A stretch of DNA of 64,000 bases from Carya illinoinensis (lineage: Eukaryota; Streptophyta; Magnoliopsida; Fagales; Juglandaceae). A program made the position numbers and the translations under genes. Positions 3,211-64,000 of the stretch are shown one piece after another (position 1 is the stretch's first letter; each line of letters starts with the position of its first letter). The stretch is taken from positions 32,324,254 to 32,388,253 of the forward strand of contig NC_056765.1 of NCBI RefSeq assembly GCF_018687715.1, given 5' to 3'. The notes under the pieces were generated by a model. The model saw nothing but the letters and a program-made list of their open reading frames with translations, made no database searches and had not been told where the DNA came from.

Positions 3211-3287
3211 ATGAGCATTTTCATCTATCGGATGCCAAAAAAATACATCGCTTCTTGACCTGAGTTCTGTTTTTCCACAACGATAGA

Positions 3288-3879: not shown

Positions 3880-3970
3880 TCAGTCTTAAAATTCATCCGA
3901 TTTGTATCAAATCTTATTCTCATCTGCATTCCTTCAGCATTCTCGCTTTAAGTTTTCAATTCTTTTCTCA

Positions 3971-4408: not shown

Positions 4409-4458
4409 AAGTATTTAAAAAAAATATCTCTCTATTTTTATGAACTCTGGTCTACCTT

Positions 4459-9241: not shown

Positions 9242-9287
9242 AAGATCTTAACTCAAAAAATAGTTAATCTTATAATAGAGCTCTTAG

Positions 9288-9299
9288 CTCTGATACCAA
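9288..9299 (-). promoter_or_regulatory. Primer-binding site of the Copia element
   Basis: The minus strand reads TGGTATCAGAGC one base downstream of the 5' LTR. This is the standard plant Copia primer-binding site, complementary to initiator methionine tRNA. Confidence 0.95.
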
Positions 9300-9871: not shown

Positions 9872-9880
9872 CTATTTATA
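9872..9880 (-). promoter_or_regulatory. TATA box of the Copia 5' LTR
   Basis: The minus strand reads TATAAATAG. It lies downstream of the U3 tandem repeats in the transcribed direction and is present in both LTRs. Confidence 0.6.
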
Positions 9881-10017
9881 GGCATATGAGACTTCATATT
9901 CAAATTTAAAAAGATTCACATGTCAAAGACAACATCATTCACTTTTTCAAAAAATTCAAATAAAAGGTTCTTCCTTTTTAATTGTCAAAGATAACATCAT
10001 TCATTTTTCAAAAATTT

Positions 10018-10210
10018 CAAACCTAATCTTTTACTTTTGGCATATGACAAAAGGAGCACACTTTCCTTTTTCAAAAATTCAAATCTAATCTTTTACTTTT
10101 TGCATATGACAAAAGGAGCACACTTTACTTTTCAAATTTTTCAAACCTAATCTTTTACTTTTTGCATATGACAAAAGGAGCACACTTTACTTTTCAAATT
10201 TTTCAAACAA
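10018..10210. repeat. Tandem repeats of about 60 bp in LTR U3
   Basis: About three units contain CATATGACAAAAGGAGCACA followed by TTTACTTTTCAAATTTTTC. The same array is in the other LTR at about 2141-2340, where one unit has CATATCACAAAAGGAACACA. Tandem U3 repeats in plant Copia LTRs often act as transcription enhancers; that role is inferred. Confidence 0.7.
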
Positions 10211-10682
10211 AATCATCTACCTTTTGTATAAGTCTAAAAAGCATCAATCACTTTTGAAAATATTCAAATAAAACATGCACATGTGAAATATGACAATCAA
10301 TCATTTTTAATATTTTCAAAGTTCAACCCTTTAATCAAGGTATGCACATGTGAAAGATGACAATCAATCATCTTTCAAAATTTTCAAATTTAATTTTCAA
10401 AATATTCATGCACATGTGGAAAATGTATTTTAATGTTTTATGATAAAATATTAATTTTTTAGCCTTAATCCTAGTTTCGAATTTTAAGAGATTTACATAT
10501 TACTCTATGACTTTAATGTAAACTTGTTCCCTTCTTGCTCATGCTTGGTTCCTTGATGTGTTTGACTCCATTGTGTGGATAACTTGAGCTTGAGATTCCT
10601 TCATTCTTTGAATTCATTTGTTATCATCAAAATCCATGTGTAGATATATAAGTATACAAAACTTGAAACCTTATGTTCAACA

Positions 10683-23600: not shown

Positions 23601-26600
23601 CTTAAGCCATAAAATTCTGGATTTTTGTCTCCATGAAATTCTTCCATAAGCATAAAATTTTCAATATCAGCTAACACCCTTCTCTTCACTAGAAATTGTA
23701 CCCCTCAACTCCTTATCCTCCAAACTGTTCAGCTGTTCCATAAGGAGTAATCTATTGTTTTTAACATTGCCAAAAGTCTCCATATTCCATTTCTTCAAAT
23801 CTTTTTTGAGCTCCTTAAATTTTCCTGCCAAAATAAAGCGGGGAGTGCCATTAAAGTGATAAGAGGCCCACCACCTCATCGAGAAACGGTTATACCTGTC
23901 CAAGGGTGGTAAATGGACTCTCATTAAGAGTACACTATCTAACCTCCCCACGTATTTTCTTTCCTTATTTCCGATATCCGCAAGTGTGGCTTCTCGCATT
24001 GAGAAAACTTTTTGCAATTTTCTTTGGGGAGGAATGGGGGATGAAGCTAAAATCCATCTTGTGGGTTGGGATAAAGTTTGTTCTCCAATTCAATGGGGAG
24101 GTTTGGGAGTGCGTAATGTAAGGGTCTTCAACAAAGCATTATTGGGGAAATGGTTATTGAGGTATCATAGTGAAGGAGAGGGCTTGTGGAGAGAAGTGAT
24201 AAGAGTCTAAGTATGGGAGTCTTCGGGGGGGTTGGTGCTCTAACGAAGTCAAGGGTGCACATGGAGTGGGTTTGTGGAAAAACATAAGAGCTGGTTGGGA
24301 CAGATTTTCTCATTTTTTCAGAGTTACAATTGGCAGCGGCAACAATGTTTTATTTTGGCATGATGTTTGGTGCGGGGACATGGCTCTTAAGCAGGCGTTT
24401 CCTATGCTTTACCAAATCGCATGTGATAAAGAGGTTGTTGTGGCTGATTTATTGATACGCTCTAATGGTGCTGTTCATTGGAATGTGAGATTTTCAAGAG
24501 CGGCTCAAGATTGGGAGCTGGACATGTTGTCTGGTTTTTTTGACTCTCTATATGCTATATCTTTTGGAAATGAGATGAGGGATAGGCTGTTGTGGAAACC
24601 AAGTGGAAATAAAAAATTCTCGGTGCGGTCATTTTATTCGGCTCTTTTGGGCCTATACCATGGTCATAGCTATCCTTGGAAAGCTATTTCCAAAATTGCA
24701 TTCTTTGTCTGGACAACATCTATTGGGTGGATTCTTACCTTGGATAATTTGAGAAAAAGTGGGTTCATTATTTCAGATTGGTGCTATATGTGTAAGTGTG
24801 ATGGGGAATCAGTTGATCATCTCTTATTACATTGTGAAGTGGCCCGGTGCTTATGGTATGAAGTTTTTAATAGGATAGGGGTGGCATGGGTCATGCCTAG
24901 AAGTGTTCGGGATCTTATGTGCTGTTGGAAAGGTATCTGGGGAAATGCTCAAATCGTTGCTGTGTGGAAAATGATACCTCACTACATTATGTGGTGTGTG
25001 TGGTTGGAGAGAAACAAGAGGTGCTTTGAAGATATGGAGCACTCTATGGCTGAACTGAAACGTTTTTTCTACTGTACACTGATTTCCTGGGCTTTGGCCA
25101 TTATTTGTAATACAGATGATCTCCATACTTTGCTTGTAACTCTCACTAGTACTTAGTTGTAACCTGGCATGATCTTTGTATATCTCTAGTGTACTCAGGC
25201 TATGCCTTTTTATGAATAAAATTTACTTTTACCTATCAAAAAAAAAAAAAAAAAAAAAAAGAGGCCCACTACCTTCTCACTCTTTCAACGAAGCCTTCCT
25301 CGTTCAACCACATATTTTCAAATTTAAAGTATCTTTTTCCACTAACAATGCCCCTACAGTCCAACAGAATAGGATAGTGGTCGGAAACTACACGCTGTAA
25401 CCTTTTCTGTTTTAACTCCGGAAAAAGAGCTTCCCAAGATGCAGAAACCAGAAATCTGTCAATACGGGGACCAAGCTCTCCCATTTGTCCAAGTGTAATC
25501 TCCTCCCGCTGTAGGCAAATCAATCAACTGCAGCTCAGAAGTAGCTTTAGAAAAAACCGAGTCTCCTACTCGCTCACAAGGAAACGAGTATTGTTAAAAT
25601 CCCCTCCAAAACACCATGGAAGATCCCACCAACTGCAAAGTCCCGCGATTTCTTCCCACAATAAACTCTTACTAGAATCTGAATCAGGTCCCTAAACACC
25701 AGCAAAAGCCCATTCAACACCATCAACAACATTCTTGAAATGACAAGCCACCAAGTATTCTCCCACATAGTGCTCTACTACCTCCACAACCCTCCTATCC
25801 CACATAACAATAACGCCTCCTAACGCTCCATTAGAGACTAACTCTACCCAGCCCACATGATTACAACTCCATAAATTATGAACCACCGAATGGCTAACAA
25901 CCTTCAATTTAGTTTCTTGGAAACAGTAAATATCAGCCTTCTACTGTCTTAACATATTTTTCACACGAAGATGCTTTCTATAGTCATTCAGCCCTCGAAC
26001 ATTTCATGAAATAATTTTAGGTCTCATGGGATACCATTGACATCTCTTTGCCTTTTTCCTTTAAAAAGCACTCCCACCCTTGGATTTATAATTACTTGAA
26101 CATTCCAATCTTTTAAGCTCCCTCTCCTTCTTAGCAGCAGATTTAGCCATAGCTGGATGCCCAGCCTCAATAGCAATAAGTAGAGCCCTAAATTGCGGTT
26201 TTAAGTAGAGCCTCAATACCAAAACTCCTGATTTTATATCTTAAAACTATTAAAGAGCATCTGTGCAATCAGCATGATTCAAATTATATTGCAAAACCCT
26301 GTGATTTAAATTCTACTGCCTATATACTCTGTTGGTGAAGAATGCTGCAACCAGCCACAAGGTGCTTCACGAAAATATATGACTTTGAACTTTTTTGATC
26401 AGTAAACAAAGAGTTTTATTGATGATATAGGTAGGCATAGCCCTAGTGCACAGGACATATACAAGAGTGGCATCCAAGCATGAGTGTCCAGTGATACAAC
26501 TAGGAACTAAAGATCACTTCCACGACCTTTGTAGGCTAACATTGTAATGAAGCAGCAAAGATCGATTTATACTCTCCTTTTGACTGTATTTTCTTCCTGG

Positions 26601-28991: not shown

Positions 28992-31900
28992 ACAACTAAA
29001 CGCCACCCCTCTGGCAGGAGTAATGCTACAGTCACTTTCGTGTACTCTCTGTGCACTCCACTGATGTGATTGGCTGCATCAATTTTTTTTTAATACACAA
29101 CCAATCACATCAATGGAGTACACAAAAGCGACTGCACATAGATTTTTTGATTGAATAATTATAAAAAAAATTATTAATTGAATAATCAGGTGAAAAGAGA
29201 GCATGGTTTTGGCTGGGTATTGGAATCACATCACTAGCCTAAGCTCGGTTGGTTCTCTTTTCGGAAGTTTTGCTATCTTACCAATAAGTCATTCGATATG
29301 AGCTACTAAATGTGACATCATCATACCTGTCATAACCAAAAAATTCTCTCTAAAATTTTCTCTCCAAAATTTTCTCTCCGTACGCATTGAGAGAAAATTC
29401 TTTTCTTGCGTAAATCACCATTATAGTAACTTCCATGGGGAGTTAAGGTGATGGTTTAAGATACTGGTATTCAATGGGATTTTTGAGAGAACTTGGGATC
29501 GAATCAAAATTGTTTATTCTTGCTAAGGTAGGCAGGCAACTACGTATTATTGAGCGAAAATGGAAGAATGAACAAGAGCTATGGGTAGAAGAAAACACTA
29601 TATAGTGGCTGCGTAAGACACTGGAAGTATGCCTAAGTGGTGAGCAAAAGGAAGTCTACAGCACCATCAGGGAGGGGCATTGACGTTTTCTTGCTCAGAG
29701 ATGTGTCAATGGTAGGGGAAGATTCATTGTGGTGTCAGTGTACCGGGAGGATGGAAAGAAAAGCTCCATTATCATTCCGGAAGGGGAAGGGGGAAGTGGA
29801 TGGAGGAGAATGAGAGATGTGTTGGAGGAGTCCCATGGCACAGGGAGATCGTGTAAAGTGGAGGTCTAATAATCAAAAGAAATTTACCGTAAAGGCATAT
29901 TACAAGATTTTAATCACACAAAATTTCGCACAGGATGATCCTCCGTTCCCTTGGAAGAATATTTGGCAGTCTCGCGTGCCCTCCAAAGTAGCCTTCTTTG
30001 TTTGGAACGCGGCTCTTGGGAAGATCTTGACCACTGATAATTTGAAGAAGAGGGGGTGTGTAATAATGGATTGGTGTTATATGTGCAAAAAGAATGGAGA
30101 GTCGGTGGACCACCTTCTATTACATTGTGAGGTCACAAGGGAGATATGGGACGAGATTTTCCAAAGGGTCGAGGTTGCATGGGTTATGCCTTTGAGGGTG
30201 GTGGATCTGTTGGGGTGCTGGAGAAAGTTACAAGGCAGCCAACAAGTAGCAGCGGTTTGGAAGATGATCCCATTATGTATCATGTGGTGTGTTTGGTCGG
30301 AAAGAAACGCGCGTTGCTTTGAAAATAAGGAACGCAACATGGAGGAGCTAAAGAACTTATGCTTTCAAACTTTAATGCTTTGGTTCTCGGCTATTGTACT
30401 AAATGGGGACAATGTTCATGAGTTTTTATCTTTAATTCCTAGAGCTTAGAATGTATCTAGGTATCTTATGTATACTTCCTGTGTACATGGGTCACGCCTA
30501 ATAATTTTTAAGCAATAAAATTTATCTTTTACTTATCAAAAAAAAAAAAAAAAGGAGTCTGTTATGGAAGGGCAAGGAAGGGCTGCCGGCATGCATGGAG
30601 GTGCTCAGCCATGGAAGAAGGTGGCAGCGTTGAGGTCGTACAAAGAGGCGCTGGTCCAAGACGCAATGGGGGGTGGTGTGGAAAGCTTTGACAGAAGATG
30701 GCCTCGAGCCACTCATGGTGTACATTTTTCAAAAGCTAACAGTGTGGGTGACATAGACATGGGGAGGAAAATAGAAGAGTTGCAGAGACAGGTATGGCTA
30801 TTGCAGTGGGAGATGACTGAAATGAGAAAGGTTGTCGGGCGAAATAAGGTAGGGGATAAAAGTGAGAGGGGCTGGACCAAGAACAGAGGTCCATGGGTAA
30901 AGGAAAGGGGAAGGAAAAAATGGATAATGGGTTTCAATGGAGACAAGTACCTGGGCCGAATATTGGGCCCTAGCCCAAGGCCCAAACATACTCTCAGGCC
31001 CCTTCCGAAAGGGGCTTAGGCCTTCAACGACCAGGCCCCAACCCAAGGCCCACAAGCCTGATTCAGGCTCAACCAACCGGGAGAAGGGATGGGCCACACC
31101 CTCAAGGCCCATCCGAAAGAAGCCTGGGCCCCCAGGCCACGGCCCTTGTGCCGGTACCCAGCCCCTGTGCCGGTACCCAGCCCTGAAAGGCTTATGGCTC
31201 GAGAGAGAACTGAACCTCGTGCTCCATCATCAGAGTAGGTGCGACGGTTGCCTACGCAGGGTATCTCGTCGGAGGTAAGTCAGAAACCGCCGATGAAGAT
31301 GGTGGAGCTCTCCGACGATGGAACGCCTGAGTGGGGTGGCCGGAAATCCTTGATAGAAGTCCTAACTCGGGTGATTCTCTTTTACCGGAAATGGGACAGA
31401 CCTCGTCGACGGGAGGATTGATGACCTTTCTGACAGTGGAGGTGCCGGATAACCACTCCAATACGTGTTTAGAGACTGTTGGGCTGTCGGCAAAAGAGGA
31501 TGGGTATTCGTTGGGCTCTAACAGTGAGGAGTTGGGGTTCACTGATGATGAAATGCTCTTAAGGCATTCTCAGGGTTGTTTAGATATCATTGGGGGTGGA
31601 AGAAGTCTCGTTGGTTGAAGACACTTTTCATAGAGAGGGAGTTCAAGAGACGGATGCAGACCTGAACAGCTTGGTTCCTATACAGATAGCTGAGGAAACG
31701 GGGACAGTGCAAGCTGAAGAGAGTGAGCCAGTCCCTTTAAATTTCTTGAGTCCAGAGCAGCCCAGGATTTCAGATTGGGTCTTTAATACGGTAAAGGATA
31801 TTGAGCATTTGGTGGGATTGAGGTGTGAAGGCTATGAATAGCAGTTTATGGCTCTACTTACAGTAATTGAAATAGGCCATCATCAACATAGGAAAGCAGA

Positions 31901-37900: not shown

Positions 37901-39720
37901 ACCCTCCTAGGCATGACCCAAGCAATACCAAGCCTTGAAAAGATCTCATCCCATAAAGCCTTAGATATATATATTTTTGATTCATAAATAAGATTTTATT
38001 GATAGTAGGAATAGGCAAAAGCCCAAGTACATGGGTCATAAACAAGAGTAATGTCTAGGAGTGATGTTTTAGTGATACAAGAAATTTATAAATGGTCATG
38101 CCATTAAAATTTATTACAATCGACCATTGGACCCATGTGTTAAAAAAAGTTTCTGACATCCAATGATTGCTCACGATCTTCCAAGCTACACGTTCCTCTC
38201 TCTCCAAAGACCCCACCATAGGCATATCGGTACCATCTTCCAAATTATGGCAATCGGAGAAGTGCCTTGGAGACCTCTCCATGAAGCTAAAAGGTTGATC
38301 ACCCTTCTTGGCATCATCCAAGCTACACCCAGATCAGCATAAAAGTCATTCCACAAAGTCGTGGCAATCTCACAATGTTTTTGTAGATGATCGACGAATT
38401 CTCCGCTCTTTTAACACAAGCAACACCAATCCAAGACTATAATTCACATTGTCTTGGGAAAAGTGGTGCATCTTATGTCATTTCTAATGAGAACTTTATG
38501 AGAGGCATACTGTTTGGTGGCTTTTTTTTGGTAAAAAGATTGTTTTCTTGTGCGTTAAAAAGTGTTGGGACATCTGGGGTATGCTGGTTTTACTTGATGG
38601 TATTCATCTTCAGCTACTAAGTTATGAATTTATGACCTTAACGTTTGCAGGCACCCAATACACTCAGCAGTCTTACAAAGTGAGCGATTCTTTCCCCTTC
38701 AAGTGGATAAACAAGAAGTGGAGGGAAGGGTTCCATGTGACCTCAATGGCAACTGCTGGGAGCCGCTGGGGTGTTGTCATGTCTCGTAATGCTGGCTTCA
38801 GTGATCAGGTTGAATTTTGCTTGTTCTATGTACAACATATTCTGTTCTCACTTCAATTTTTCTGTGTTCCTACAAAAATGTGGTGAAAGTGAAAGACAAG
38901 CTGCCCTTTTGTTTTCTTAGTGTTTTTTTGGTTTTTCTTTTTTTTTTTTTATTTTTTTTTATTTTGGGGGGGGGGGGGGGGGGTCGGGGGGAATATTTAT
39001 ATATTATTTAATTAGGAGACGTAACTTAATAATGGCTTTTAAATGTTAATTTGACTTGTTGGAATCCATGTTGGAATTTTTATGACGTAACTTTTCACTC
39101 TGCTTGACTTTGTGTAAATTTTGTTACCAAATAAATTTGAAACAACTTATGATGATTGACTTGACTGCTTATGTTGGATTCAGCAATGTGACCTAGGGTT
39201 GAAACTAGTTGGTCGACAAATCAATCAAAGCTTCAACATTGTTTCTTCATTTGAAGACAAATTGGCATGGTTGCTATTCTTCCCCCCTCTTCCCCTTCCT
39301 CTCCCGGGTTCTCTGACCTATGCTGTCACTGCTTTGTATAAGGTTGTGGAGCTTGATTTTCTTTATCCAAGTGAGGGCATCCATAGGCGTTGGGACAGTG
39401 GTTACCGAATTACATCGACTGCTGCCACATGGGATCAAGCTGCCCTGATTTTGAGTGTGCCTAGGCGCAAACCTGGTGACGAAACGCAAGAGACATTGCG
39501 GACATCCCAATTTCCGAGCACCCATGTTAAGGTAAATGTGTTGGGGAGTATGTTCTTCTGGGATGAGATTATTTCTATGAGGTGCAGATATGGGTTCATT
39601 GTACCTTTTTTGAGATGTGATACACTAAACTTTTCGTCTATGCTTCTGGTTTATGTGCAGGAAAAGTGGCAAAAGAATCTCTATCTTGCTTGTTTGTGTT
39701 ATGGGCGGACGGTATCTTGA
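17619..39720 (+). CDS. MUT9-like / casein kinase 1-type Ser/Thr protein kinase (16 exons, 680 aa)
   Basis: Coding exons: 17619-17945, 19925-20053, 20131-20204, 20338-20407, 20533-20588, 27650-27721, 27897-27991, 28082-28148, 28236-28365, 28469-28687, 28782-28912, 37162-37336, 37436-37526, 38651-38808, 39343-39531 and 39661-39720. They sum to 2043 nt, an unbroken frame of 680 codons plus stop. Residues 1-109 ([15 protein letters not shown], an acidic Glu run, basic patches) form a disordered, likely nuclear head. The kinase domain runs from about 118 to 395: Gly loop GKGGFG (125-130), Lys156 in [12 protein letters not shown] (246-253), and DLG at 271-273 where most kinases have DFG. The C-terminal third ([28 protein letters not shown]) is typical of plant MLK/PPK kinases. 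These phosphorylate histone H3 and photoreceptor-signalling proteins in the nucleus. Introns 1, 5, 11 and 13 are filled with LINEs. Which paralogue it is remains open. Confidence 0.93.
19181..19627 (+). mobile_element. 5'-truncated L1-type LINE in kinase intron 1
   Basis: This 447-bp insertion ends in an A tract and is flanked by a perfect 21-bp target-site duplication (19160-19180 and 19628-19648, beginning ATGGTGGTTTTCAC). It encodes the last part of LINE ORF2, the RT-associated zinc-binding domain: [17 protein letters not shown], then [14 protein letters not shown]. The tail ends TACCTATCAAAAAA like other LINEs in the window. Confidence 0.93.
21109..21507 (-). pseudogene. LINE ORF2 C-terminal zinc-binding domain
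   Basis: An open stretch with [20 protein letters not shown], the CxxC-type motif [20 protein letters not shown], and the [13 protein letters not shown] tail. It is the terminal zf-RVT domain of the minus-strand LINE and no longer in one frame with the RT. Confidence 0.85.
22290..23570 (-). CDS. LINE reverse transcriptase ORF (426 aa, partial)
   Basis: The longest intact LINE frame in the window. Non-LTR RT motifs in order: DKAPGPNGF (near residue 85), [66 protein letters not shown], the catalytic FADDTLIF (near 330), and LGFPLGA. Both catalytic Asp residues are kept. Flanking frames are broken, so it is a remnant of a larger ORF2. Confidence 0.9.
   Translation of the reverse strand: MANSQRRNNTIEVLHVGENVICDKGEIEDNIVNFYENIFREEHSWRPKLDGLVFYPIDHFTAVWLERPFEEDEVLDVVRGMSKDKAPGPNGFFMAFFQACRDIVKDDVMKVFDEFHSLRKFEKVLTQTFIALIPKKAGAVEMRDFRPISLVNGVYKIISKVLANLLCVVMDKITTKPQHAFVKGRQILDSIFVAHECLESGKRMGQSEILVKLDMEKAFGHVNWDFLLYLLGRFGFGEKWCSWTRHCILTAKFSILVNGSSAAFFSSSRGLRQGDPLSPFLFVVMDALSHMIEVAVEGGFVSGFKVGDVSRGSITVSHLLFADDTLIFSDANKDHLRALRALLLCFEAVSGLRINLSKSEIVPVGSVSNIYDLANILGCKVSSLPMKYLGFPLGAPHKSVSIWDGVIEKIERRLAGWKKTIFVQRG
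23877..25258 (+). mobile_element. Nested 5'-truncated LINE inside the minus-strand LINE
   Basis: Plus-strand LINE 3' half ending in about 22 A residues. A short target-site duplication flanks it (AAGAGGCCCACCACCT at about 23861, GAGGCCCACTACCT at 25261). On both sides the interrupted minus LINE continues exactly (FVERVR on one side, [10 protein letters not shown] on the other). It encodes the post-RT region and zinc-binding domain, with a frame break near 24210. Confidence 0.9.
24266..25156 (+). CDS. LINE ORF2 C-terminal region (296 aa)
   Basis: Open frame with [16 protein letters not shown], then the zinc-binding domain [20 protein letters not shown] and [15 protein letters not shown]. It belongs to the nested LINE. 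It has no catalytic part of its own. Confidence 0.85.
   Translation: MGLWKNIRAGWDRFSHFFRVTIGSGNNVLFWHDVWCGDMALKQAFPMLYQIACDKEVVVADLLIRSNGAVHWNVRFSRAAQDWELDMLSGFFDSLYAISFGNEMRDRLLWKPSGNKKFSVRSFYSALLGLYHGHSYPWKAISKIAFFVWTTSIGWILTLDNLRKSGFIISDWCYMCKCDGESVDHLLLHCEVARCLWYEVFNRIGVAWVMPRSVRDLMCCWKGIWGNAQIVAVWKMIPHYIMWCVWLERNKRCFEDMEHSMAELKRFFYCTLISWALAIICNTDDLHTLLVTLTST
26393..26560 (-). mobile_element. LINE 3'-end fragment
   Basis: TTTTTTGATCAGTAAACAAA, then TAGGCATAGCCCTAGTGCAC and ACATATACAAGAG: the shared 3' tail of this LINE family in minus orientation. A similar, weaker tail is at about 26826-26925. No coding content. Confidence 0.6.
27201..27359 (+). mobile_element. Very short LINE tail insertion with TSD
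   Basis: 159 bp ending in an A tract, flanked by TTACATTTGTTT at 27189-27200 and 27360-27371. It carries the family tail (TTGTATATGTCCTGTGTAAT, then GCCTATTCTTGGTAATAAAA). It is an extreme 5' truncation. Confidence 0.85.
27992..28081 (+). other. GC-AG intron in the kinase gene
   Basis: Exon 7 ends GGATTAG and the intron starts GCGAGT; exon 8 starts after TTACAG. Only this junction gives the invariant family sequence DLGLATKWRD. Using the nearby GT (27996) would shift the frame. GC donors are a known minor class and usually need strong surrounding matches, as seen here. Confidence 0.85.
28939..28995. repeat. (CT)n(CA)n compound microsatellite
   Basis: A CT run is followed directly by a CA run, 27 bp inside kinase intron 11. 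It is a likely length polymorphism. Confidence 0.95.
29832..30553 (+). mobile_element. Nested 5'-truncated LINE inside LINE ORF1
   Basis: About 720 bp ending in an A tract. The host ORF1 continues across it (DVLEES before, ES then MEGQGRAAG after), with a GGAGTC duplication. It encodes [20 protein letters not shown] and [20 protein letters not shown], the ORF2 zinc-binding domain, open to 30449. Confidence 0.87.
30556..31850 (+). pseudogene. LINE ORF1 (nucleic-acid-binding protein) remnant
   Basis: Broken frames over this span: a coiled-coil stretch ([20 protein letters not shown]), a Pro/Gly/Lys-rich basic stretch, and a Ser/Glu-rich tail. The 5' part upstream of the nested LINE reads [18 protein letters not shown], typical of plant L1 ORF1. 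At least three frames are needed, so it is not functional. Confidence 0.6.
32005..32634 (+). pseudogene. LINE endonuclease domain remnant
   Basis: APE-type endonuclease pieces: [14 protein letters not shown] (metal-binding Glu in QET), [25 protein letters not shown], the [10 protein letters not shown] motif (catalytic D and N), and [14 protein letters not shown] (the SDH motif). A TGA at 32299-32301 splits it. The first block (NVRGLN) is not in frame. Confidence 0.85.
32665..34250 (+). pseudogene. LINE reverse transcriptase remnant with a lost catalytic Asp
   Basis: RT motifs: [45 protein letters not shown], and [20 protein letters not shown]. The catalytic box reads LLFADTLFF, with one codon of the Asp-Asp pair missing (compare FADDTLIF in the other LINE). 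TGA at 33217 and TAG at 33697 also break the frame. Confidence 0.88.
34744..35066 (+). mobile_element. LINE 3'-end fragment
   Basis: A frame-shifted remnant of the zinc-domain tail ([18 protein letters not shown], preceded by a decayed [20 protein letters not shown] stretch) and a weak AATAAAAT tail. Limits are approximate. Confidence 0.45.
35067..36089. other. Intron 11 sequence without recognisable elements
   Basis: AT-rich intronic DNA. A short direct repeat (GAGCAGCAACACTACCGATC / GAGCGGCAACACTACCGATC) occurs at about 35951 and 35986. No gene. Confidence 0.4.
36090..36412 (+). mobile_element. LINE 3'-end fragment
   Basis: Remnant of [11 protein letters not shown] and the WRK/EELKTLS-type zinc-domain tail, ending with TTACTTGTCAAAAAAG. 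Frames are broken. The 5' limit is uncertain. Confidence 0.6.
36439..36576 (+). mobile_element. Very short LINE tail insertion with TSD
   Basis: 138 bp between GATAAGCCTGA copies at 36428-36438 and 36577-36587. It ends TTTTACCTATCAAAAAAAT, the family tail. Confidence 0.82.
37555..37960 (-). mobile_element. LINE 3'-end insertion in kinase intron 13, copy 1
   Basis: Flanked by TTAGATATATATAT at about 37541 and 37961. The minus strand encodes [20 protein letters not shown] and [14 protein letters not shown], the ORF2 zinc-domain tail. The TTTTGATAAGTAAGAA end is the oligo(A) side. Confidence 0.82.
37975..38436 (-). mobile_element. LINE 3'-end insertion in kinase intron 13, copy 2
   Basis: It starts TTTTTGATTCATAAATAAG and contains the tail TAGGCAAAAGCCCAAGTACA, then a broken zinc-domain tail on the minus strand up to about DWCCLC. 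Copy 1 landed next to the oligo(A) end of this copy, a common LINE target. Confidence 0.7.
38936..38991. repeat. T-rich / G-run tract
   Basis: T-rich homopolymers followed by about 18 consecutive G within kinase intron 14. G and C runs of this length are error-prone in assemblies. Confidence 0.8.
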
Positions 39721-41348
39721 TTCCTTTGTAATTGCAAGGAGTTTCTAGGTCAAAAGAAAGTGAGATTTTGGTGTTCTTCTTTTCCTATCATTTATGTAGG
39801 ATTTCATGTCAACTGTAAAAAACGATCGAGGAGCTTAGCTACGGCAGCAGCTGAGGCATGTGCTCCTATGTATGATAAATTGGTATTAAAGCTGCACGTT
39901 TGCCTTTCATTTTACCTCGTTCGAGTTTGTAAGAAAAAAATATTTAGTGGCGCACCATTTTTGCTTTTCTTGGTTCTTTTTGAAAGTAGGAAGACTTGAC
40001 TTTAGAGCAATGTCAAGTTACTCGTGGTGTTGACATAATATCATTATGTCCTTGATCAAATAATGAAACTATGGTTATGCTAACACAATTCTATCTTGAC
40101 AAAATGCTCATATCAAGTGTATGTATGTCTATTCGTGGATGTACCTACGGTACTATTAATGATGTTCTCTAGGGATGCTAGTAGTTATAACCTTTATTCC
40201 CCTATTACACACGATGGTGATGATTTTCTTCATCTTGCATGTCATCGATTGCATATTACATTAACTGACAGGGTTAGCAGTCAAGAACCTTCTTTTCATA
40301 TAACCAAGATCGGTAGTGGTAAAGGCTCAATTTGGAGTAAGGATACAATAATGCTAAGCCCAAATCAATTCAAAGTTTGGCATGCATTCATTTACTAGGG
40401 TGCAAGTGCATGTGAGTTAAAGTAGGTCCAATTGTGAAGCTTGTGTGAGTGGCAAAAGTGAAGTTTGCTTAGTGTTTTAAATACATCTTATAGTCAAGTG
40501 GGAGTGATTTCAAGTATTGGTTCAAACCTCTTAACAGTTTTTAATGATGTCATCGACAATTTTTAATAATAATTTTGGTTCAAACCTCTTAACAATTTGA
40601 TATCAAGGGCTTCCCCAATCCAACACATTGAGTCTAGATATGTTTGAAACTCATTCAGATATAAGACTTTTTAGAAAAATGTGCAGAATTGGAATTTGAT
40701 TAATAGGAGAATTAAACAGTTAATATACATGAGAAATTCTCAATCTCTCAAAGAAAACAATCTATTATATAATAATATTTTTTGGCTCCGCTAATTAACT
40801 GATTACTCTAGTGCTTAAATGTGATAAATTGCAACAAACCAATTGAAAATTCGACTCCTAACTTCTAAACAAAATGGTTAACATTTTCTATTCCCAAAGA
40901 AACAATGCCAAAGCCAACACTCTAAAGGATTCATGTTGAATCGAATTTTCATTTTTCGTTATGCAGCACTTTCATGTTAAGTATTTTCCCACGTTTTGGC
41001 AACTGAAGGTTCCCTGATGATCACTTCCAAGCACATAATATTTAATCATATTTTTCATATAAAAAACAAATAGATGCATAAATGACTAAAGTGCATGATT
41101 TATAGAGATCTCAGTCTGATATGAAAGACAGTGATAGCATTAACGTACCATAAACATGACAATGAAGGAAAGCTCGGGTGGTTGACTGCATTCCCTTAAT
41201 CAATATGAGATTTCATGATCACCTCGACATCGTCAATGGAATTAAGAGGTTTCAGGTACAAAATGGTGATAATATTCTATTCCCAAAATAAACAATGCCA
41301 AGCCATTACTCAAAAGGACTAAGCTTTAAAGGGGTACTCCGGATGAAT
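39721..41348. other. Intergenic region between kinase and TNL, with NLR 3'-end duplicates
   Basis: The first few hundred bases are the kinase 3' UTR. About 40610-40740 resembles 61285-61410 (GATTAATAGGAGAATTAAAC / GATTAATAGGAAAATGAAAT, plus neighbouring blocks). About 40885-41000 resembles the TNL terminus at 41278-41400 (CAATGCCAAAGCC..., ATTTTCATTTTTCGTTATGC). The functional TNL stop is at 41349. Confidence 0.55.
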
Positions 41349-44300
41349 CTAATCTTCATTTCTCGTCATACCGCATTTCCATGCTGAATAAAATTGACGA
41401 TAGAAATCTAAATCTGATCCCAAACCAAGACCAGTATCGTCCGGACATACTAAATGTAACCCCCATTCTTTCACTTCTACAGGAGTTTGAGAAGAAATCT
41501 CTTTAATTGAAATCTTAATGAAGCTCTGATTATCCGAACTATTCGATTTCAGAGGAGTACGTGCATATGCCCAGCATACACTTGGCTCAACGAGAGAGAG
41601 ACTGAATCCGGAATCAAAATGTTCTAAAGAACCATCATCTCTCTCACAACAAAAGCTACAAGTCACATGTGAAGTTTCCTTGAATAGCCGAGGAATTGAA
41701 GTAGCTTCAGGGGAATGGAATTGATGACAATCAAAAACTATAAAGATGGCACAATCTATCACCGACGTCGTATTACCATCCAACTCTATCTGTAAAGAGG
41801 AGCCAATACTTTTATTGTGGACCCACTCCGGGATTCTAGATCCCAACGACCACCCTTCTATAAACGGCTGTAAAACAATCCCCAAAAAGAGATGTTAATT
41901 GCTGCACAAATTAAGCTTGTTTTGTTTTCTATATTTACGTGTGTTCTTTTCTAAATTAAAGAAGAGAGAGAGATAGGGAGACTCACCGCAATGCCGAAAT
42001 AAATTTGCATTTCTTCCATGTCATATTCCACAGGTGATCCAATATCATGATTGGTGGGATATGAGCTTTGTTTCGGCAAAAAACAGTCATTAATGAACAT
42101 GGCTAAATGATCTCTTGATTTACGTGGCATCCTCTTTCGTCTTTGGATCTTTAAGGAACGGATGTTCTTGGGGATTAGATTGACAGGTGGCATTTGTGTT
42201 ATAGCAGTTCCGTATGCCTCAAATTCCTTTAAGCATTCCAACCTACTCAGGTCTGGAAATTTTTCTAGTCTTGACCAACCAACCAAATGGAGACTTTCAA
42301 GAGATGCCAAACTACAAATAACACTCGGAAAAATTGAAATGTTATTGCAACCTCCTAAATATAATTCGCGAAGGCCTGAGAAACTCATAAACGATGATGG
42401 TAAGCAGAACTTGTCTAGAATTAGTAGTCTTGTAAGACATTTGTTTAAACCCAAAATTTTTAGTCGTTCGGGCACTTTGATGGATGGGCAGAACTTACAC
42501 AAGCTTCTACAACCTAAAAAATTTATTTTCATGAGATTTGGGACTCCACTCAAATTTGGTATTTCAATCAAGTTCTCACAATAACTCAGATCTAATACCT
42601 TCAAATTGGGTAAAACCTGTTATAAACAAACAAGTTGTTATAAATTAGATAAAAGTATAAATATATTAAGTTATTTGGAAAATATATGAATGGAGATTAT
42701 TAAGAAGATCAATACGTATTTATACGAGTGAAAAGCTTACCATCGATCCCTTCCATAGTTGTTTGATTCGGGTGCCAGACATATTTAATTCTTCTAGTCG
42801 TTTGAGCTTTTTGATGGATGGGTGGACCTTACACAAGCTTCTACAATCTGAAAAGTTTATTATCTCAAGATTTGGGGCTCCACTCAAATATGGTATTTCA
42901 ATCAAGTTCTTACAGCCACTCAGATTTAAGTACTTCAAATTGTCTAAACCCTGTTATAAACAAACAAATAGTTATAAATTAGATAAAAATATGAATATAT
43001 TAACTTATTTAGAAAAGATATGAAGGGAATTATTAAGAAAAATACGTATTTATAAGAGTGAGATACTTACCACCAACCCCTTCCATAGTTGTTTGATTCG
43101 GGTGCCAGACATTCTTAATTCTTGTTGTCGTTGGAGCACTTTGATGGATGGGTAGAACTTACACAAGCTTCTACAACCTGAAAAATCTATTTTCTCGAGA
43201 TTTGGGGCTCCACTCAAATTTGGTATTTTAATCAAGTTCTTAGAAAACCTCAGATCTAATTCCTTCAAATTGGGTAAAACCTGTTATAAACAAACAAGTT
43301 GTTATAAATTAGATAAAAATATGAATATATTAACTTATTTGGAAAAGATATGAAGGGGATTATTAAGAAGAATGCGTATTTCTACAAATGAGAAACTTAC
43401 CACCAACCCCTTCCATAGTTGTTTGATTCGGGTGCCAGACATTCTTAATTTTTGTAGTTGTTTGAGCACTTTGATGGATGGGTGGACCTTACACAAGCTT
43501 CTACAATATGAAAAGTCTATTTCCTCAATATTTGGGGCTCCACTCAAATTTGGTATTTCAATCAAGTTCTTAGAAAACCTCAAATCTAATTTCTTCAAAT
43601 TGTCTAAACCCTGTTATAAACAAACAAGTAGTTATAAATTAGATAAAAATATGAATATATTAACTTATTTGAAAAAGATATGAAGGGGATTATTAAGAAG
43701 AATGCGTATTTCTACAAATGAGAAACTTACCACCAACCCCTTCCATAGTTGTTTGATTCGGGTGTGAGACATTATTAATTCTTGTAGTTGTTTGAGCACT
43801 TTGATGGATGGGTGGACCTTACACAAGTTTCTACAATATGAAAAGTCTATTATCTCGAGATTTGGAGCTTCACTCAAATCTGATATTTCAATCAAGTTCT
43901 CACAAGAATTCAGATCTAATTCCTTCAAATTGTCTAAACCCTGTTATAAACAAACAAGTAGTTATAAATTAGATAAAAATATGAATATATTAACTTATTT
44001 GAAAAAGATATGAAGGGGATTATTAAGAAGAATGCGTATTTCTACAAATGAGAAACCTTCCATAGTTGTTTACACAAGCTTCTACAATCTGAAAACTCTA
44101 TTTTCTCGAGATTTGGAGCTCCACTCAAATATGGTATTTCAATCAAGTTCTCACAAAAATTCAGATTTAATTCCTTCAAATTGGGTAAAACCTGTTATAA
44201 ACAAACAAGTTATAAATTAGATAAAAATATGAATATATTAACTTATTTGGAAAAGATATGACGGGGATTATTAAGAAGAATGCGTATTTCTACAAATGAG

Positions 44301-47300
44301 AAACTTACCACCAACCCCTTCCATAGTTGTTTACACAAGCTTATACAACCTGAAAAATTTATTTTCTCGAGATTTGGAGCTCCACTCAAATCTGGTATTT
44401 CAATCAAGTTCTCACAAGAATTCAGATCTAATTCCTTCAAATTGGGTAAAACCTGTTATAAACAAACAAGTTGTTATAAATTAGATAAAAATATGAATAT
44501 ATTAACTTATTTGGAAAAGATATGACGGAAATTATTAAGAAGAATGCGTATTTCTACAAATGAGAAACTTACCACCAACCCCTTCCATAGTTGTTTGATT
44601 TGGGTGTAAGACATTCTTAATTCTTGTAGTTGTTTGAGCACTTTGATGGATGGGTGGACCTTACACAAGCTTCTACAATATAAAAATTCTATTATCTCGA
44701 GATTTGGAGCTCCACTCAAATCTGGTATTTCAATCAAGTTCTCACAAAAATCCACATATAATTGTTTCAAATTGGGTAAAACCTGTTATAAACAAACAAG
44801 TTGTTATAAATTAGATAAAAATATGAATATATTAACTTATTTGGAAAAGATATGACGGAAATTATTAAGAAGAATGCGTATTTCTACAAATGAGAAACTT
44901 ACCACCAACCCCTTCCATAGTTGTTTGATTCGGGTGCAAGACATTTTTAATTTTTGTAGTTGTTTGAGCACTTTGATAGATGGGTGGACCTTACACAAGC
45001 TTCTACAATATGAAAAGTCTATTTCCTCAATATTTGGGGCTCCACTCAAATCTGGTATTTCAATCAAGTTCTCACAAAAATTCAGATATAATTGCTTCAA
45101 ATTGGGTAAAACCTGTTATAAACAAACAAGTTGTTATAAATTAGATAAAAATATGAATATATTAACTTATTTGGAAAATATATGAAGGGGATTATTAAGA
45201 AGAATGCGTATTTCTACAAATGAGAAACTTACCACCAACCCCTTCCATAGTTGTTTGATTCGGGTGTGAGACATTCTTAATTCTTGTAGTTGTTTGAGCA
45301 CTTTGATGGATGGGTGGACCTTACACAAGCTTCTACAACCTGAAAAATTTATTTTCTCGAGATTTGGGGCTTCACTCAAATCTGGTATTTCAATCAAGTT
45401 CTCACAAGAATTCAGATCTAATTCCTTCAAATTGGGTAAAACCTGTTATAAACAAACAAGTTGTTATAAATTAGATAAAAATATGAATATATTAACTTAT
45501 TTGGAAAAGATATGAAGGGGATTATTAAGAAGAATGCGTATTTCTACAAATGAGAAACTTACCACCAACCCCTTCCATAGTTGTTTACACAAGCTTCTAC
45601 AATATGAAAAATTTATTTTCTCGAGATTTGGAGCTCCACTCAAATCTGGTATTTCAATCAAGTTCTCACAAGAATTCAGATCTAATTCCTTCAAATTGGG
45701 TAAAACCTGTTATAAACAAACAAGTTGTTATAAATTAGATAAAAATATGAATATATTAACTTATTTGGAAAAGATATGACGGAAATTATTAAGAAGAATG
45801 CGTATTTCTACAAATGAGAAACTTACAACCAACCCCTTCCATAGTTGTTTGATTCGGGTGTGAGACATTCTTGATTCTTGTAGTTGTTTGAGCACTTTGA
45901 TGGATGGGTGGACCTTACACAAGCTTCTACAATATACAAATTTTATTATCTCGAGATTTGGAGCTCCACTCAAATCTGGTATTTCAATCAAGTTCACACA
46001 AGAACTCAGATCTAATTCCTTCAAATTGGGTAAAACCTGTTATAAATAAACAAGTTATAAATTAGATAAAAATATGAATATATTAACTTATTTGGAAAAG
46101 ATATGAAGGGGATTATTAAGAAGAATGCGTATTTCTACAAATGAAAAACTTACCACCAACCATTTTCATAGTTGTTTGATTCGGGTGCCAGACATTCTTA
46201 ATTCTTGTAGTTGTTTGAGCACTTTGATAGATGGGTGGATCTCAGACAATTTTTTACATTCTGAAAAGTCTATTTTCTCAAGTTTTGGGACTTTTGTCAA
46301 ATTTGACATTTCAATCAAGTTCTCACAATTTCTAAGATTTAATTCTTTCTAATTGGGTAAAACTTATTATAAACAAAACAAATAGTTATAAATTAGATTA
46401 AAATAAGAATATATTAACTTATTTAGAAAAAGACAGAAAGAGAGATTATTAAGATGAATGCGTATTTATATGAGCAAAAAACTTACCAACGACCCCGTCC
46501 ATAGTTGTTCGATGCAGCTATCAGACATATTTAATACAATAAGATTTTTTGGTTGGAAACTCCGCGGCCAGGATTTCAAAGGATATCCATACCATTTTAG
46601 GAACTGCAACTTATCGCTTGGCATGTATTCTAAAGGATTTCCAGACCCTTTTATATATCCAAAAGCACAGATATAAAGTAATCTCAAATTTATCATCTTT
46701 GAGAATGCTTCGGCATTAGTTATATCGGTACGATTTGTTCCAAGAATACTATCACAACTGAGGGCCATGCCTTCAATTGCATCAGTTCCCTAGTAACCAA
46801 GAAGAATGGATTAGCAAGAATTAGGATGAAAATATACCTTTTTATATTAATCTCTACACTAATCAACTTACAGTATCATTATTCAGTACGTGAACGACAT
46901 CTTCACGATGAAACAGCCTACTACGTCGTCCAGGTTCTTGACGACATTCGCGGCGAACTATTTGCCGACCCATTTCTTTTAGCAAATCATGCATGGTCAA
47001 CCTTTCTTTAAAGTATACGTCATCTTTGCTTACGAGTGACTTATCGATGAGAACCTGAATGACGTCGGCCGAATATATTTTCTTAAAATCTATCCATCGA
47101 TCAGAAAAACATGCCAGATCCAAAAACAATATTTTCTGCGGTTCCTCCAGCCCATCAAAACTTATTTTAAGAATATCAAAAATTTCAGGTTTAGGATTCG
47201 CTTTCAAGTTATCCCTAGCACCTTTCCAGAAATCTATTGTTCTCCCAAATAAGAAGCAACCCAAAACTTTAAGAGCTAAAGGAAGGCCTCCAGCATAATT

Positions 47301-48733
47301 CACAAAATCCATAGATAGATCCTTGTAATCCTCTGGAGGATGGGTTTCGTCGAAGGCTGACAAACTAAAGAGCTCCAAAGCATCGGTGGTATGAAGCGGC
47401 TCAACCTTATATCTATTCACTTTATTTCTTTCCAACAGATGACTATCTCTGCATGTCATAATTACCCTACTCCCTGGACCAAACCAATTATGATCCCCTG
47501 CTAATGCCGTCAGTTGCTTTTCACAATCCACATCATCAAGAATGATAAGAACCTTTTTATTCCGCAACCTGGTGCTCATCAACATGAGTCCATCGCGATG
47601 ATCCCATACATGTATTTCTTGTTGCATGATCTTAGAAAGAAGTTTTTTTTGTAAAGAAGCTAGATCAGGAGCAGTAGTAGATCTTTCTCTAGTACAAGAA
47701 ATAAAGCCGCTTCCTTTGAATTGACAATAAAATCTATAATAAATTATTTCCGCCAGCGTTGTTTTACCAACGCCACCCATCCCATGAATTCCTAAGAAGC
47801 GAACGTCATTCGATTCCATATGCAATAAGGTCAAAATTTCCCCTACACGGGAGTCTATTCCAACAATTTTCTGGTTTTCATGAATTAGAATATTTGGCAT
47901 TGTATAATTGTAGAGTATCATTTCACTGATTTGTTGTATAATTGTTGACTCGTACCTGTAATTTGATAAAACAATTAATATAGACGAAAGCTGAATAGGC
48001 ACGAACGGACAAACAAAAAAAAACTCTTTTAACTTATAATTAGAATATTTAGCATCGTTTTGTAGAAAAATTATAAATGTCATGAGTAGCTAGATAGATA
48101 GTCGTTAATAACAACACTAACACTAACAATAACCGCAAAAGTACTAGCTAGTCGTTACCTGTCCCCATTTATGTGCTCTCCCTTAATATAACCGACTTTT
48201 GTGAAAGCATTTCTCCAAGTATTACTCTCTTCGATGTCTACCATGGGATCTTTTTCATGTGCGGCGAAAGCTTCTGCAAAAGTCCCTCTTTGTTTTCTTA
48301 CATGGGAAGGATCCACATGGTAGAAAATAGGAATAATTGTGAGATTCTTCTTTTCCTCCCATTCAACGATCTCGGCAAGTTCCCTGAGGCACCATTTCGA
48401 AAAAGCATAATTTTTTGAAAAAATGACAATGGCGTATCGGGATTCTTGAATTGCTTGCATAAGCTCTTGAGAAATGTATGTTCCTCGCTCGAGTGATTCG
48501 TCATCCCTAAAGACGAGAATACCTTTCCCTTTTAAATAGGAATATAGATGATCCGTAAAACTTCTGCGAGTGTCTTCGCCACAGAAACTAAGGAAAACAT
48601 CATGTTTCCATCGAGCCGTCGAGGAAGAAGGTAAGGAAGAGGTTTCATTTTCTTCCGAACAAGATGAATTGTCTCTTTTTCTTTTCTTAGTATTCTCGGA
48701 ATTAGTAGATGAAGAGGGTCTTTGAGTGGCCAT
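41349..48733 (-). CDS. TIR-NBS-LRR (TNL) resistance protein with tandemly multiplied LRR exons
   Basis: Exons, 5' to 3': TIR 48733-48159; NB-ARC 47955-46872; LRR-a 46789-46487; eleven usable copies of one LRR exon between 46036 and 42741; LRR-z 42616-41987; C-JID 41867-41349. Skipping the dead copy at 46154-46363 gives 5214 nt, about 1737 residues, in one frame. KKRKR at 16-20 may be a nuclear signal. TIR starts near 42 (KHDVFLSF) with the likely NADase Glu118 in SKWCLREL. NB-ARC has P-loop GMGGVGKTT (250-258), kinase-2 KVLIILDDVD, GSRVIMTCRD, GGLPLALKVLG, LFLDLACF and MHDLL (513-517). C-JID shows GSRIPEWVHNKSIGSSLQIE. TNLs sense effectors, and their TIR enzyme activity drives immunity through EDS1. 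The first repeats give NLKELDLNSCENLIEIPDLS and LKQLQELRMSHTRIKQLW. Most introns in the array begin GTAAGT. Confidence 0.88.
44057..44191 (-). other. LRR exon copy with lost canonical donor
   Basis: This copy has the shared 66-nt deletion plus loss of the TTACCACCAACC segment that holds the normal donor. The next GT (AAG|GTTTCT) is weak but would still end in phase 0 (45 codons). Without splicing there, translation meets a TAG shortly after. Confidence 0.65.
46154..46363 (-). pseudogene. Dead LRR exon copy at the 5' end of the array
   Basis: The acceptor changed from AACAG|G to AATAAG. The exon contains an in-frame TAG near its start (PN*KELNL) and a TGA at the position of Trp in QLWKW. Because the exon is phase 0-0, skipping it keeps the TNL frame. 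Inclusion would truncate the protein before most LRRs. Confidence 0.75.
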
Positions 48734-48809
48734 GAATGCAGTGCGAGAGATTTAGAAGCTTAATTGTGGAAGGTGGGAATATTGGTAATTTGCGGGCTTA
48801 GACAATGAG

Positions 48810-54060: not shown

Positions 54061-54480
54061 TCTTAATAAACTCTCTCAGATGTAAATAATAAAAAATAAC
54101 AGAGCATTGTACCTTGACTATAAGGTGTTGTTTGGTCTTCCTACTGTACTGATGTTGTGAATAAAAAATAACTCCCACAGCAGATATAATCGGCAAATGC
54201 AAATCACCACAGCCAACTTGCCTAGCTCACACGGCTATAAAGAGCTTCCAATACTTAGATTACAACCAATGCATAATCAGAGGGCAGCTCACAATATCTA
54301 TGTATTAAATGTACCTAGCAATCACCAGCTTCTAGCATGCACAACAAACTTCAAAATGGCTTGAGAAAATAAAATGAATCGACATTTCATTGAACATGGA
54401 ACTTGGCGTTTACCCTCTGCGGAGATTTTTTTTGAAGGAATGCAATAAAAAGGTTGTCTTGAAAATCTATTTAGAAACTA

Positions 54481-55422
54481 TTGGCTATAAGATCTGTCCC
54501 ATTTTGCTTCCTTCTCAATCACTGTCTTGCTATAGGAGATTTTGCTGAAAAAATTTGGCTTATTTGTTCTATTGTTCTTGGAATTCCTTGGATAGAAGGT
54601 AGTTCTTGGAATCAGAGGGTGGAGTGCTGGTATAGGCGGGCAAAAAATTCTAATCGCCCGGGTCAATTGCTGGGTCTTCTTCCGACTATCATTACTTGGC
54701 GTCTATGGAGACGTCGCTGTAAAGCCAGAATGGAAGGCTTGATGGAATCAGTCCAACAGGTTTGGTGTTCTATTAAATATTGGGTCTCTTGGATCGGGTT
54801 AAAGCTTAAGGATGTCAACTTGCTCTCTCGACGTGACGAAGGTGTTTTACATTGCTTTAATATGCCTTTAAATGTTACGCGAAAAGAGTTTATTATTCCA
54901 GTCAAGTTGAAGCTCCCTAAGCCAGGTTGGGTCAAATTGAATGTTGATGGCTCTTCTCTAGGCAATCCAGGCCCGTCGGGTGCAAGAGGCATCATTCGCG
55001 ATGATAACGGTAATTTTCTTTGCGGGTTTGCAGCTGCCACTGGGCATAACTCCAACAACTATGCTGAACTGATGGGTTTACTCCATGGGCTTCGTCATAT
55101 TGGCCTGTTGGGTGTTTCATCTGTGGAAATCGAACTTGACTCCATGCTTGTGCTTAACTGGTTGAGGACTCAGAGATGTGGCCTGTGGTACATGGAAGAT
55201 TATTGGGATGAGATTCAGAGTCGTCTCGCAGGGCTTAATGTTTCTCTTGTTCACTGCTATAGAGAATGTAATTCGGTTGCGGATGGGCTTGCTAAACTGG
55301 GTGCTAAGGGCCATACCCTCTCATGGTTTTCTTTATCTGATCTACCTGCTTACATAAGAGGCAATATTCGGCTGGACAAAGGGGGTCTTCCCTACATTCG
55401 GAAAATTCGAAGACGATGTTAA
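54481..55422 (+). CDS. LINE ORF2 C-terminus with RNase H domain
   Basis: Open frame; the LINE part begins about 54519, directly after duplication copy A1, so the first residues are host sequence. The RNase H fold (about residues 145-280) shows NVDGSSLGNPGPSGARGIIR (first catalytic Asp), NNYAELMGLLHGL (Glu), VEIELDSMLVLNWL (Asp) and CNSVADGLAKLG (final Asp). The N-terminal part matches the linker after the zinc-binding domain (PTIITWRLWRRRCKARMEG). It is the 3' end of an RNase H-bearing plant LINE (or an independent RVT_3-type gene); no clear A tail is seen. Confidence 0.72.
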   Translation: MAIRSVPFCFLLNHCLAIGDFAEKIWLICSIVLGIPWIEGSSWNQRVECWYRRAKNSNRPGQLLGLLPTIITWRLWRRRCKARMEGLMESVQQVWCSIKYWVSWIGLKLKDVNLLSRRDEGVLHCFNMPLNVTRKEFIIPVKLKLPKPGWVKLNVDGSSLGNPGPSGARGIIRDDNGNFLCGFAAATGHNSNNYAELMGLLHGLRHIGLLGVSSVEIELDSMLVLNWLRTQRCGLWYMEDYWDEIQSRLAGLNVSLVHCYRECNSVADGLAKLGAKGHTLSWFSLSDLPAYIRGNIRLDKGGLPYIRKIRRRC

Positions 55423-63405: not shown

Positions 63406-63825
63406 CTAAAGATAGTAGCTTACGCTTCCACCCAGCAGTCTTCTTCTGAACTTTTGCCAAAAAGAATCAAACATTTGACGTTTCAATCGGTCCACAAATA
63501 AAGGGACACCCAAATACGTACATGGCCATCGACCTTCCTCAAATCCCGAAATCATTCTCAGCCCATTTTTACGATTAATCAAAATAGATGAAGAGAAAAA
63601 CATTGAAGACTGACTTGGATTAATCAACTGCCCAGACAATGGTTCATACCTTCGCACTACCTCCATAAGATTCCGAATAGATGACTTCCCCCCATTGGTG
63701 AAAACCAGGACATCATCCGCATAAAGCAAATGAGAGACAAGAGTTCCTCCACCCAAGTGATAAGGCTTAATTTGCCCCAAATTAAACTCACGATTGAGCA
63801 TTCGAGAGAGAATCTCCTCCAACAA
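63406..63825 (-). pseudogene. LINE reverse transcriptase, C-terminal half
   Basis: 139-residue piece with LVSHLLYADDVLVFTNGGKS (catalytic YADD), EPLSGQLINPSQSS and TYLGVPLFVDRLKRQMFDS. Further RT motifs lie in other frames towards the window edge (GLRQCDPLFPYLF-like). Confidence 0.85.
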
Positions 63826-64000
63826 AATAAATAAATAAGGGAAAAGAGGGTCACATTGCCGTAAACCTCAAGACGCTTTGAAAAAACTTTTAGTACACCC
63901 ATTCAACATCACCGAGAAGAAAGGGGAACAAACAACATTAAAAACAATACTTCGCCAATTTTTTGAGAAGCCCAATTACTGTAGAATTTCTAGCAAAAAC

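Follow-up and report, generated by a model that had tools for sequence, protein, structure and literature searches.

Tandem arrays of exons encoding leucine-rich repeats (LRRs) have been described in brown algae and ciliates, and an array of this kind lies in a TIR-NBS-LRR (TNL) gene of pecan, Carya illinoinensis, within a 64,000-nt stretch of NC_056765.1 (the window; coordinates are window positions in forward-strand numbering). In brown algae, LRR-ROCO genes carry 72-bp phase-2 LRR exons in tandem, show diversifying selection and yield alternative transcripts, according to the consulted part of PMC11378527. The consulted part of PMC6564038 describes arrays of 90-bp phase-2 LRR exons in Tetrahymena, with 1–51 exons per gene in T. 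thermophila, and proposes unequal crossing-over for them. In Prunus, the TNLs Ma and RMja have five duplicated post-LRR (PL) exons, as described in excerpts of PMC4851768 and PMC6141779. For the pecan genome, an excerpt of PMC8257795 reports presence–absence variation and a phylloxera quantitative trait locus with LRR genes on chromosome 16, and does not mention the locus described here.

The pecan gene is complete in the gene model (48733..41349, minus strand) and is probably a functional immune receptor, the LRR solenoid of which has been lengthened by one repeated module and which would be resized as a sensor by unequal exchange. Its TIR, NB-ARC, winged-helix, LRR and C-JID regions follow the same order as in ROQ1, RPP1 and WRR4A-type TNLs; unlike these, it has an addition of about 30 LRRs from copies of one exon. 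Internal LRR duplications occur in the Arabidopsis RPP5/RPP4 family. The A. thaliana protein P0051, which is 64% identical to a protein named RPP5 like, contains the same 120-aa sequence twice at a distance of 157 aa, compared with 70 aa in the pecan array. The algal ROCO genes share with the pecan gene tandem single-phase LRR exons and positively selected concave-face sites; they differ, within the part of PMC11378527 consulted, in having one LRR per exon and a GTPase, whereas the pecan exons are mostly 210 nt long, phase 0-0, encode three LRRs each and form an intron-centred chimera in a TNL. The alternative transcripts described there may have a pecan counterpart in prediction-like database isoforms. 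The pecan gene has NB-ARC instead of a ROC-COR GTPase core, so it is not a member of the ROCO family and has only a similar way of working. The Tetrahymena arrays resemble the pecan array in their one-size exons, single intron phase and variable number, but are phase 2 and belong to a ciliate, in genes that, judging by the excerpt of PMC6564038, are presumably not TNLs. Ma and RMja are likewise woody-plant TNLs lengthened by exon duplication; in the excerpts cited, it is a C-terminal PL exon in five copies, and not an LRR exon, that was duplicated.

No LRR-exon array of this size in a plant nucleotide-binding LRR receptor (NLR) was found in the literature searched by title and start of abstract, with few subscription journals covered. 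The first-pass annotation had called so regular an array unusual, which may hold for plant NLRs within the literature searched, but such arrays are published for brown algae and Tetrahymena in the excerpts above. LRR-exon arrays as such being already known, the new elements are the chimeric array exon, introns that are more alike than the exons, amino-acid change concentrated on the predicted concave face, a series of 0–21 units among annotated pecan relatives and listed isoforms that differ by blocks of units. They give a base-pair-level view of a simple route to a length-adjustable plant NLR sensor.

Gene model and array architecture

The array (46363..42741, minus strand) consists of twelve tandem units of about 330 bp, each an exon plus an intron (Table 1). 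Nine exons are 210 nt long (U1, U2, U4–U6 and U9–U12), U3 and U7 have 144 nt and U8 has 135 nt; all lengths are multiples of 3, and all twelve exons are phase 0-0. The array introns are 116–124 bp long. Overlapping arrays with periods of 330, 261, 330, 264 and 327 were reported at the locus by Tandem Repeats Finder. Eleven of the twelve exons are open and jointly encode 701 aa, or about 30 LRRs. These results agree with the first-pass annotation, which had described twelve phase 0-0 units between the first and last LRR exons of a TNL, usually with a 210-nt exon per 330 bp, eleven of them open and adding over 700 residues and about 30 LRRs.

Table 1. Exons of the pecan TNL gene, listed in the direction of transcription.
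Feature	Position	Strand	Basis
Exon 1, TIR domain, ATG at 48733	48159..48733	-	Gene model; Pfam TIR 1.3e-49
Exon 2, NB-ARC and winged helix	46872..47955	-	Gene model; Pfam NB-ARC 3.9e-25, WHD_ROQ1 1.3e-8
Exon 3, linker and first LRRs; final ~51 nt resemble the 3' part of the array exon	46487..46789	-	Gene model, sequence comparison
Array exon U1, 210 nt, broken: two in-frame stops, altered acceptor	46154..46363	-	Sequence
Array exon U2, 210 nt, open	45827..46036	-	Sequence
Array exon U3, 144 nt (66-nt deletion), open	45563..45706	-	Sequence
Array exon U4, 210 nt, open	45233..45442	-	Sequence
Array exon U5, 210 nt, open	44903..45112	-	Sequence
Array exon U6, 210 nt, open	44573..44782	-	Sequence
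Array exon U7, 144 nt (66-nt deletion, same as U3), open	44309..44452	-	Sequence
Array exon U8, 135 nt, open, weak donor	44057..44191	-	Sequence
Array exon U9, 210 nt, open	43731..43940	-	Sequence
Array exon U10, 210 nt, open	43401..43610	-	Sequence
Array exon U11, 210 nt, open	43071..43280	-	Sequence
Array exon U12, 210 nt, open	42741..42950	-	Sequence
Last LRR exon; initial ~159 nt resemble the 5' part of the array exon	41987..42616	-	Gene model, sequence comparison
Last coding exon, C-JID (post-LRR) domain and stop codon at 41349	41349..41867	-	Gene model; Pfam C-JID

The model of the gene that omits U1 is stop-free and encodes 1737 aa; an array-free model encodes 1036 aa. In the latter, TIR, NB-ARC and LRR domains were found by Pfam in the order seen in TNL receptors. 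The C-JID assignment is marginal: exon 6 alone scores 24.3 bits against a cut-off of 24.1, and none was reported for the whole array-free model at E 0.001. The closest solved structures are ROQ1, RPP1 and 9qlv. The ROQ1 alignment spans residues 35–791 of the array-free model, and the site of the array, directly after the first LRRs, aligns to the ROQ1 motif 'LWNG'. No other TNL copies were found in the window (five TNL queries, 93 tblastn matches, 0 outside 41300–48800).

The splice sites of the units are nearly uniform. The acceptor is TAACAG|G in eleven units and TAATAA|G in U1; the donor is exactly GTAAGT in ten (U1–U7 and U9–U11) and GTAAGC in U12. In U8, a 13-nt deletion has removed the GTAAGT donor and left a GT (AAG|GTTTCT) in phase. 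One and the same 66-nt deletion is present in U3, U7 and U8, which suggests, on comparison of the units, that it may have spread by copying. Pairwise differences between the unit exons range from 2 to 22%. The most diverged units are those at the array edges, U1 and U12 (78–88% identity to the others), as expected if growth and homogenisation occur inside the array.

Origin of the array exon

The first 159–160 nt of each full-length unit match the start of the last LRR exon (78–90% identity, anchored at the 5' end), and the remaining ~51 nt resemble the 3' end of exon 3 (71–80%); with the source exons swapped, identity is only 25–33%. The best junction falls at nt 159 or 160 in all nine full-length units, U1 included, with P at most 0.0005 for each on shuffling of the exon 3 tail. 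All thirteen introns, array and flanking, are alike, the first sharing 81–83% identity with the others and the others at least 88% with one another. By these matches, the array exon joins the opening part of the last LRR exon to the closing part of the first one (exon 3). The array would have been founded most simply if a segment with one intron at its centre had been duplicated in tandem; the lengths of the parts of such a segment add up to the observed array period (51 + 120 + 159 = 330). The first-pass annotation had proposed serial duplication of one phase 0-0 exon; a single exon is indeed repeated, but it is a fusion, as would fit duplication of a segment around one intron, and not the product of plain exon duplication. 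With a fusion exon and introns that are all copies of one intron, every phase is 0-0 and the frame is kept at any copy number. Duplication of a segment centred on one intron thus puts every later copy in phase, and phase symmetry arises without selection for symmetric exons.

Exon and intron divergence

Mean identity is 91.7% for exons U2–U11 and 97.9% for introns i2–i10; over the whole array, it is 89.1% for the 12 exons and 93.2% for the 13 introns. The introns are therefore more conserved than the exons, and not equally conserved as had first been noted. Jukes–Cantor estimates for U2–U11 are 0.095 for nonsynonymous (dN) and 0.068 for synonymous (dS) divergence, compared with an intron divergence (K) of 0.021 for i2–i10 (bootstrap P(dN<=K) 0.0005). 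Of the 45 unit pairs among U2–U11, 40 show greater divergence in the exon than in the intron downstream of it, 16 of the 45 with P<0.05. In U2–U10, 39 of 210 exon columns are variable, as are 6 of 120 intron columns (P 0.00025). Because the selection tests given here and below are of the counting type and the copies may exchange sequence, their P values are rough.

The per-codon comparison that the first-pass annotation had proposed for the xxLxLxx sites was made on an exposed set of 15 codons per unit, the solvent-exposed positions of three LxxLxLxx motifs. Change concentrates there. Across U2–U12, dN is 0.316 and dS 0.112 at the exposed codons (dN/dS about 2.8; bootstrap P(dN<=dS) 0.028), and 0.057 and 0.070, respectively, at the other 55 (permutation P 5e-5 for dN between the two classes). 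Columns vary at 12 of the 15 exposed positions and 22 of the 55 others (Fisher P 0.006). A separate check used units of 22 other proteins (21 pecan, 1 walnut), without the isoforms of the window gene. In these 84 distinct units, taken over their first 66 residues, mean entropy at the same 15 positions is 2.06 bits versus 0.82 bits elsewhere (P 1.7e-5). Amino-acid change is focused on the predicted concave face of the LRRs, and the scaffold is kept.

The pecan relative P0018 has four full units and part of a fifth. In its AlphaFold2 model, the LRR solenoid is predicted with confidence, and strands fall at unit positions 7–9, 30–32 and 54–56. The model was built from 42 sequences (mean pLDDT 70.6, pTM 0.53), with NB-ARC at low confidence, and the LRR part only was used. 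With three strands per unit, a full array exon encodes three LRRs, and the variable sites are located in and beside the strands.

If the array were a by-product of unequal exchange in a TNL becoming a pseudogene, the stops and shifted acceptor of U1, the lost donor of U8 and the short annotated models in several pecan relatives would be explained; such decay is quite improbable in view of the eleven open units, the open state of all other exons, with TIR, NB-ARC and C-JID, and the focus of variation on exposed LRR positions with the scaffold kept.

Annotated isoforms and splicing

Nine isoforms of the window gene are listed for Carya illinoinensis, X8 and X16–X23 (P0004, P0006–P0010, P0012, P0013 and P0015); P0004 stands for a cluster of 15 sequences, and the counts cover its one listed member. 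All nine are identical to the model over residues 1–650 and in the array units that they hold, except for one extra Q. U1 is absent from all nine, and each also lacks, in frame, one contiguous block of 1–5 units: U4, U2–U4, U3–U5, U4–U7, U6–U10, U7–U9 (two isoforms), U7–U10 or U8–U10. U11 and U12 are kept in all nine and U8 in four. The extra Q is in P0008 (isoform X16), one of the two that lack U7–U9, at the join of U6 to U10, where no visible GT-AG join fits, and may be an alignment artefact. Two further proteins, P0003 and P0005, share the locus tag I3842_14G132900 and are identical over residues 1–665. In the array, P0005 looks like P0003 minus three adjacent units; because units 2 and 6 of P0003 have the same sequence, more than one choice of the three fits. 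The P0003 model ends early, without the last exon.

Such isoforms could mean that near-identical splice sites let different exon subsets be joined, giving many LRR surfaces per gene. This combinatorial receptor would fit the in-frame loss of U1 and a contiguous block in each listed isoform, the array difference between P0003 and P0005 under one locus tag and the near-identity of splice sites in at least ten of the twelve units. It is nevertheless unlikely: the isoforms resemble predictions, short reads do not allow junctions to be assigned when exons are nearly identical, and the extra Q with no fitting GT-AG join hints at alignment trouble. The change in length by exon skipping that the first-pass annotation had foreseen is suggested only by prediction-like isoforms, which ambiguous short reads could produce. 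It is likewise improbable that this is a flowering-plant TNL in which ~11 interchangeable LRR exons, held diverse at the binding face with introns kept alike by recombination, are joined differently by cell or on infection, as a somatic receptor repertoire from one locus and a plant counterpart of the brown-algal ROCO proposal.

Relatives and unit number

A hidden Markov model of the unit, built from eight window units, was applied to 211 proteins from two overlapping searches, each giving the best 120 of many more matches. The counts are of annotated units, and gene models may be cut or fused. Full units number 21 in P0001, 20 in P0002, 12 in P0003 and P0011, 7 in P0016, 4 in P0017, P0018 and P0019, 3 in P0024, 2 in P0031 and 1 in several proteins, including walnut P0057. 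Among the 36 proteins P0121–P0156, 24 (Carya or Juglans) have one partial match ending at model position 53–59, the pattern expected of the last exon alone, and so have no unit; five have full units, four no match, and three from other plants weak partial matches. Annotated pecan relatives thus span 0 to 21 units. At the protein level, the presence of one unit in walnut P0057 suggests that the array may have been founded before pecan and walnut split.

Units 1–4 of P0001 equal its units 11–14, a case of block copying. A four-unit higher-order period was rejected as a general rule: lag 4 was prominent in two of five proteins (P0002, P 0.001; P0016, P 0.024) but not in P0001, P0003 and P0011 (P 0.29–0.38). 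Unit number differs between annotated related genes, in line with the unequal crossing-over put forward in the first-pass annotation; copy-number change at this locus itself was not observed. In the pecan family, the relation of sensor length and concave-surface variation to recognition becomes testable, as does the role of introns as recombination tracks that leave the array mobile while selection keeps the exons distinct.

Near-identical 330-bp repeats are a known assembly hazard, and the array could in principle be an artefact of repeats collapsed or expanded. The 2–22% differences between unit exons, together with module arrays in proteins annotated on contigs of four lengths (33.9, 30.8, 30.2 and 31.7 Mb), which are consistent with separate assemblies, make this very improbable.

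At least three LW motifs occur in 24 of the 211 proteins. At least two spacings of 68–72 aa were found in 21 of these, all named Carya illinoinensis and including the nine window-gene isoforms; the other three have no such spacing. Judged by LW-motif spacing, the chimeric module was not found in other plants among the 211 proteins. Of 92 non-Carya matches, 37 contain internal repeats (at least 80% across 120 aa) that recur about every 70 aa or at a multiple of that distance, and 19 more have other periods. The 70-aa-repeat matches, named Quercus, Malus, Prunus, Gossypium, Ipomoea, Rosa and others, show 82–98% internal identity and 26–34% identity to the query; the query is itself 70-periodic, which biases this sample. 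They are perhaps independent three-LRR amplifications. Two Gossypium proteins, P0048 and P0103, combine 70-aa internal repeats with PF18052, which we take to be an Rx-type N-terminal domain, and have no listed TIR domain.

Proposed history of the array

The following scheme would connect the observed anatomy, chimera, variability pattern and size series of annotated relatives. In an ancestral TNL, a single short intron would have separated the first LRR exon from the last, and this intron, together with ~51 nt upstream and ~159 nt downstream of it, would have been duplicated in tandem to give the founding 330-bp unit. Unequal crossing-over and gene conversion via the near-identical introns would have changed copy number and moved blocks of units, with selection keeping the exons different at the concave LRR face; U1 would be dead and left out on splicing. 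The resulting TNL would have about 40 LRRs, 30 of them from the array and about ten, counted by eye, from outside it. At three LRRs for each full exon and two for each short one, the array would place the C-terminal LRRs and C-JID about 30 LRRs further from NB-ARC. The enlarged LRR surface would sense effectors, with TIR-domain signalling like that of ROQ1/RPP1. We infer translation of the long form, contact of the array with effectors and unequal exchange as the motor.

Several points weigh against this account. U1 is dead and the U8 donor is weak, so decay is under way, and expression is taken from database isoforms only. With all codons counted, the excess of dN over dS is not significant (bootstrap P(dN<=dS) 0.21). 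Exon dS is also above intron divergence (bootstrap P(dS<=K) 0.027), so amino-acid selection alone cannot account for the exon–intron contrast. That contrast is weaker with intron i11 counted (K 0.037 for i2–i11 versus 0.021), and the difference in variable columns drops for U2–U11 (45/210 versus 15/120, P 0.029). The exposed positions follow the xxLxLxx rule named in the first-pass annotation, but the set was fixed after the per-codon counts were known. The nine units sharing a junction are copies, so the common junction counts as one event and not nine. Relatives were compared at the protein level and not in exon structure, and among the matches examined none on another pecan contig reached 90% N-terminal identity (best 84.9%, P0016).

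Other features of the window

Neither Rfam (gathering thresholds) nor ARAGORN gave a match in the window. A probable Copia-type long terminal repeat retrotransposon occupies 1463–10230, with RVT_2, integrase core and GAG-pre-integrase open reading frames (ORFs) on the minus strand; within it, near-identical 62-bp tandem repeats lie at 2129–2354 and 10005–10230. Reverse-transcriptase-related ORFs at 22293–23660 (-), 29814–30446 (+), 54475–55419 (+) and 63409–63867 (-) are probably pieces of long interspersed nuclear elements; they contain RVT_1, zf-RVT and RVT_3/RNase H families, with one RVT_1 just under the cut-off. About 1.6 kb past the 3' end of the TNL and on the opposite strand, two ORFs at 38491–39717 (+) contain parts of DUF7477 (PF24289). 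A low-complexity segment at 38923–38983 consists of a T-rich part and, after it, 18 consecutive G.

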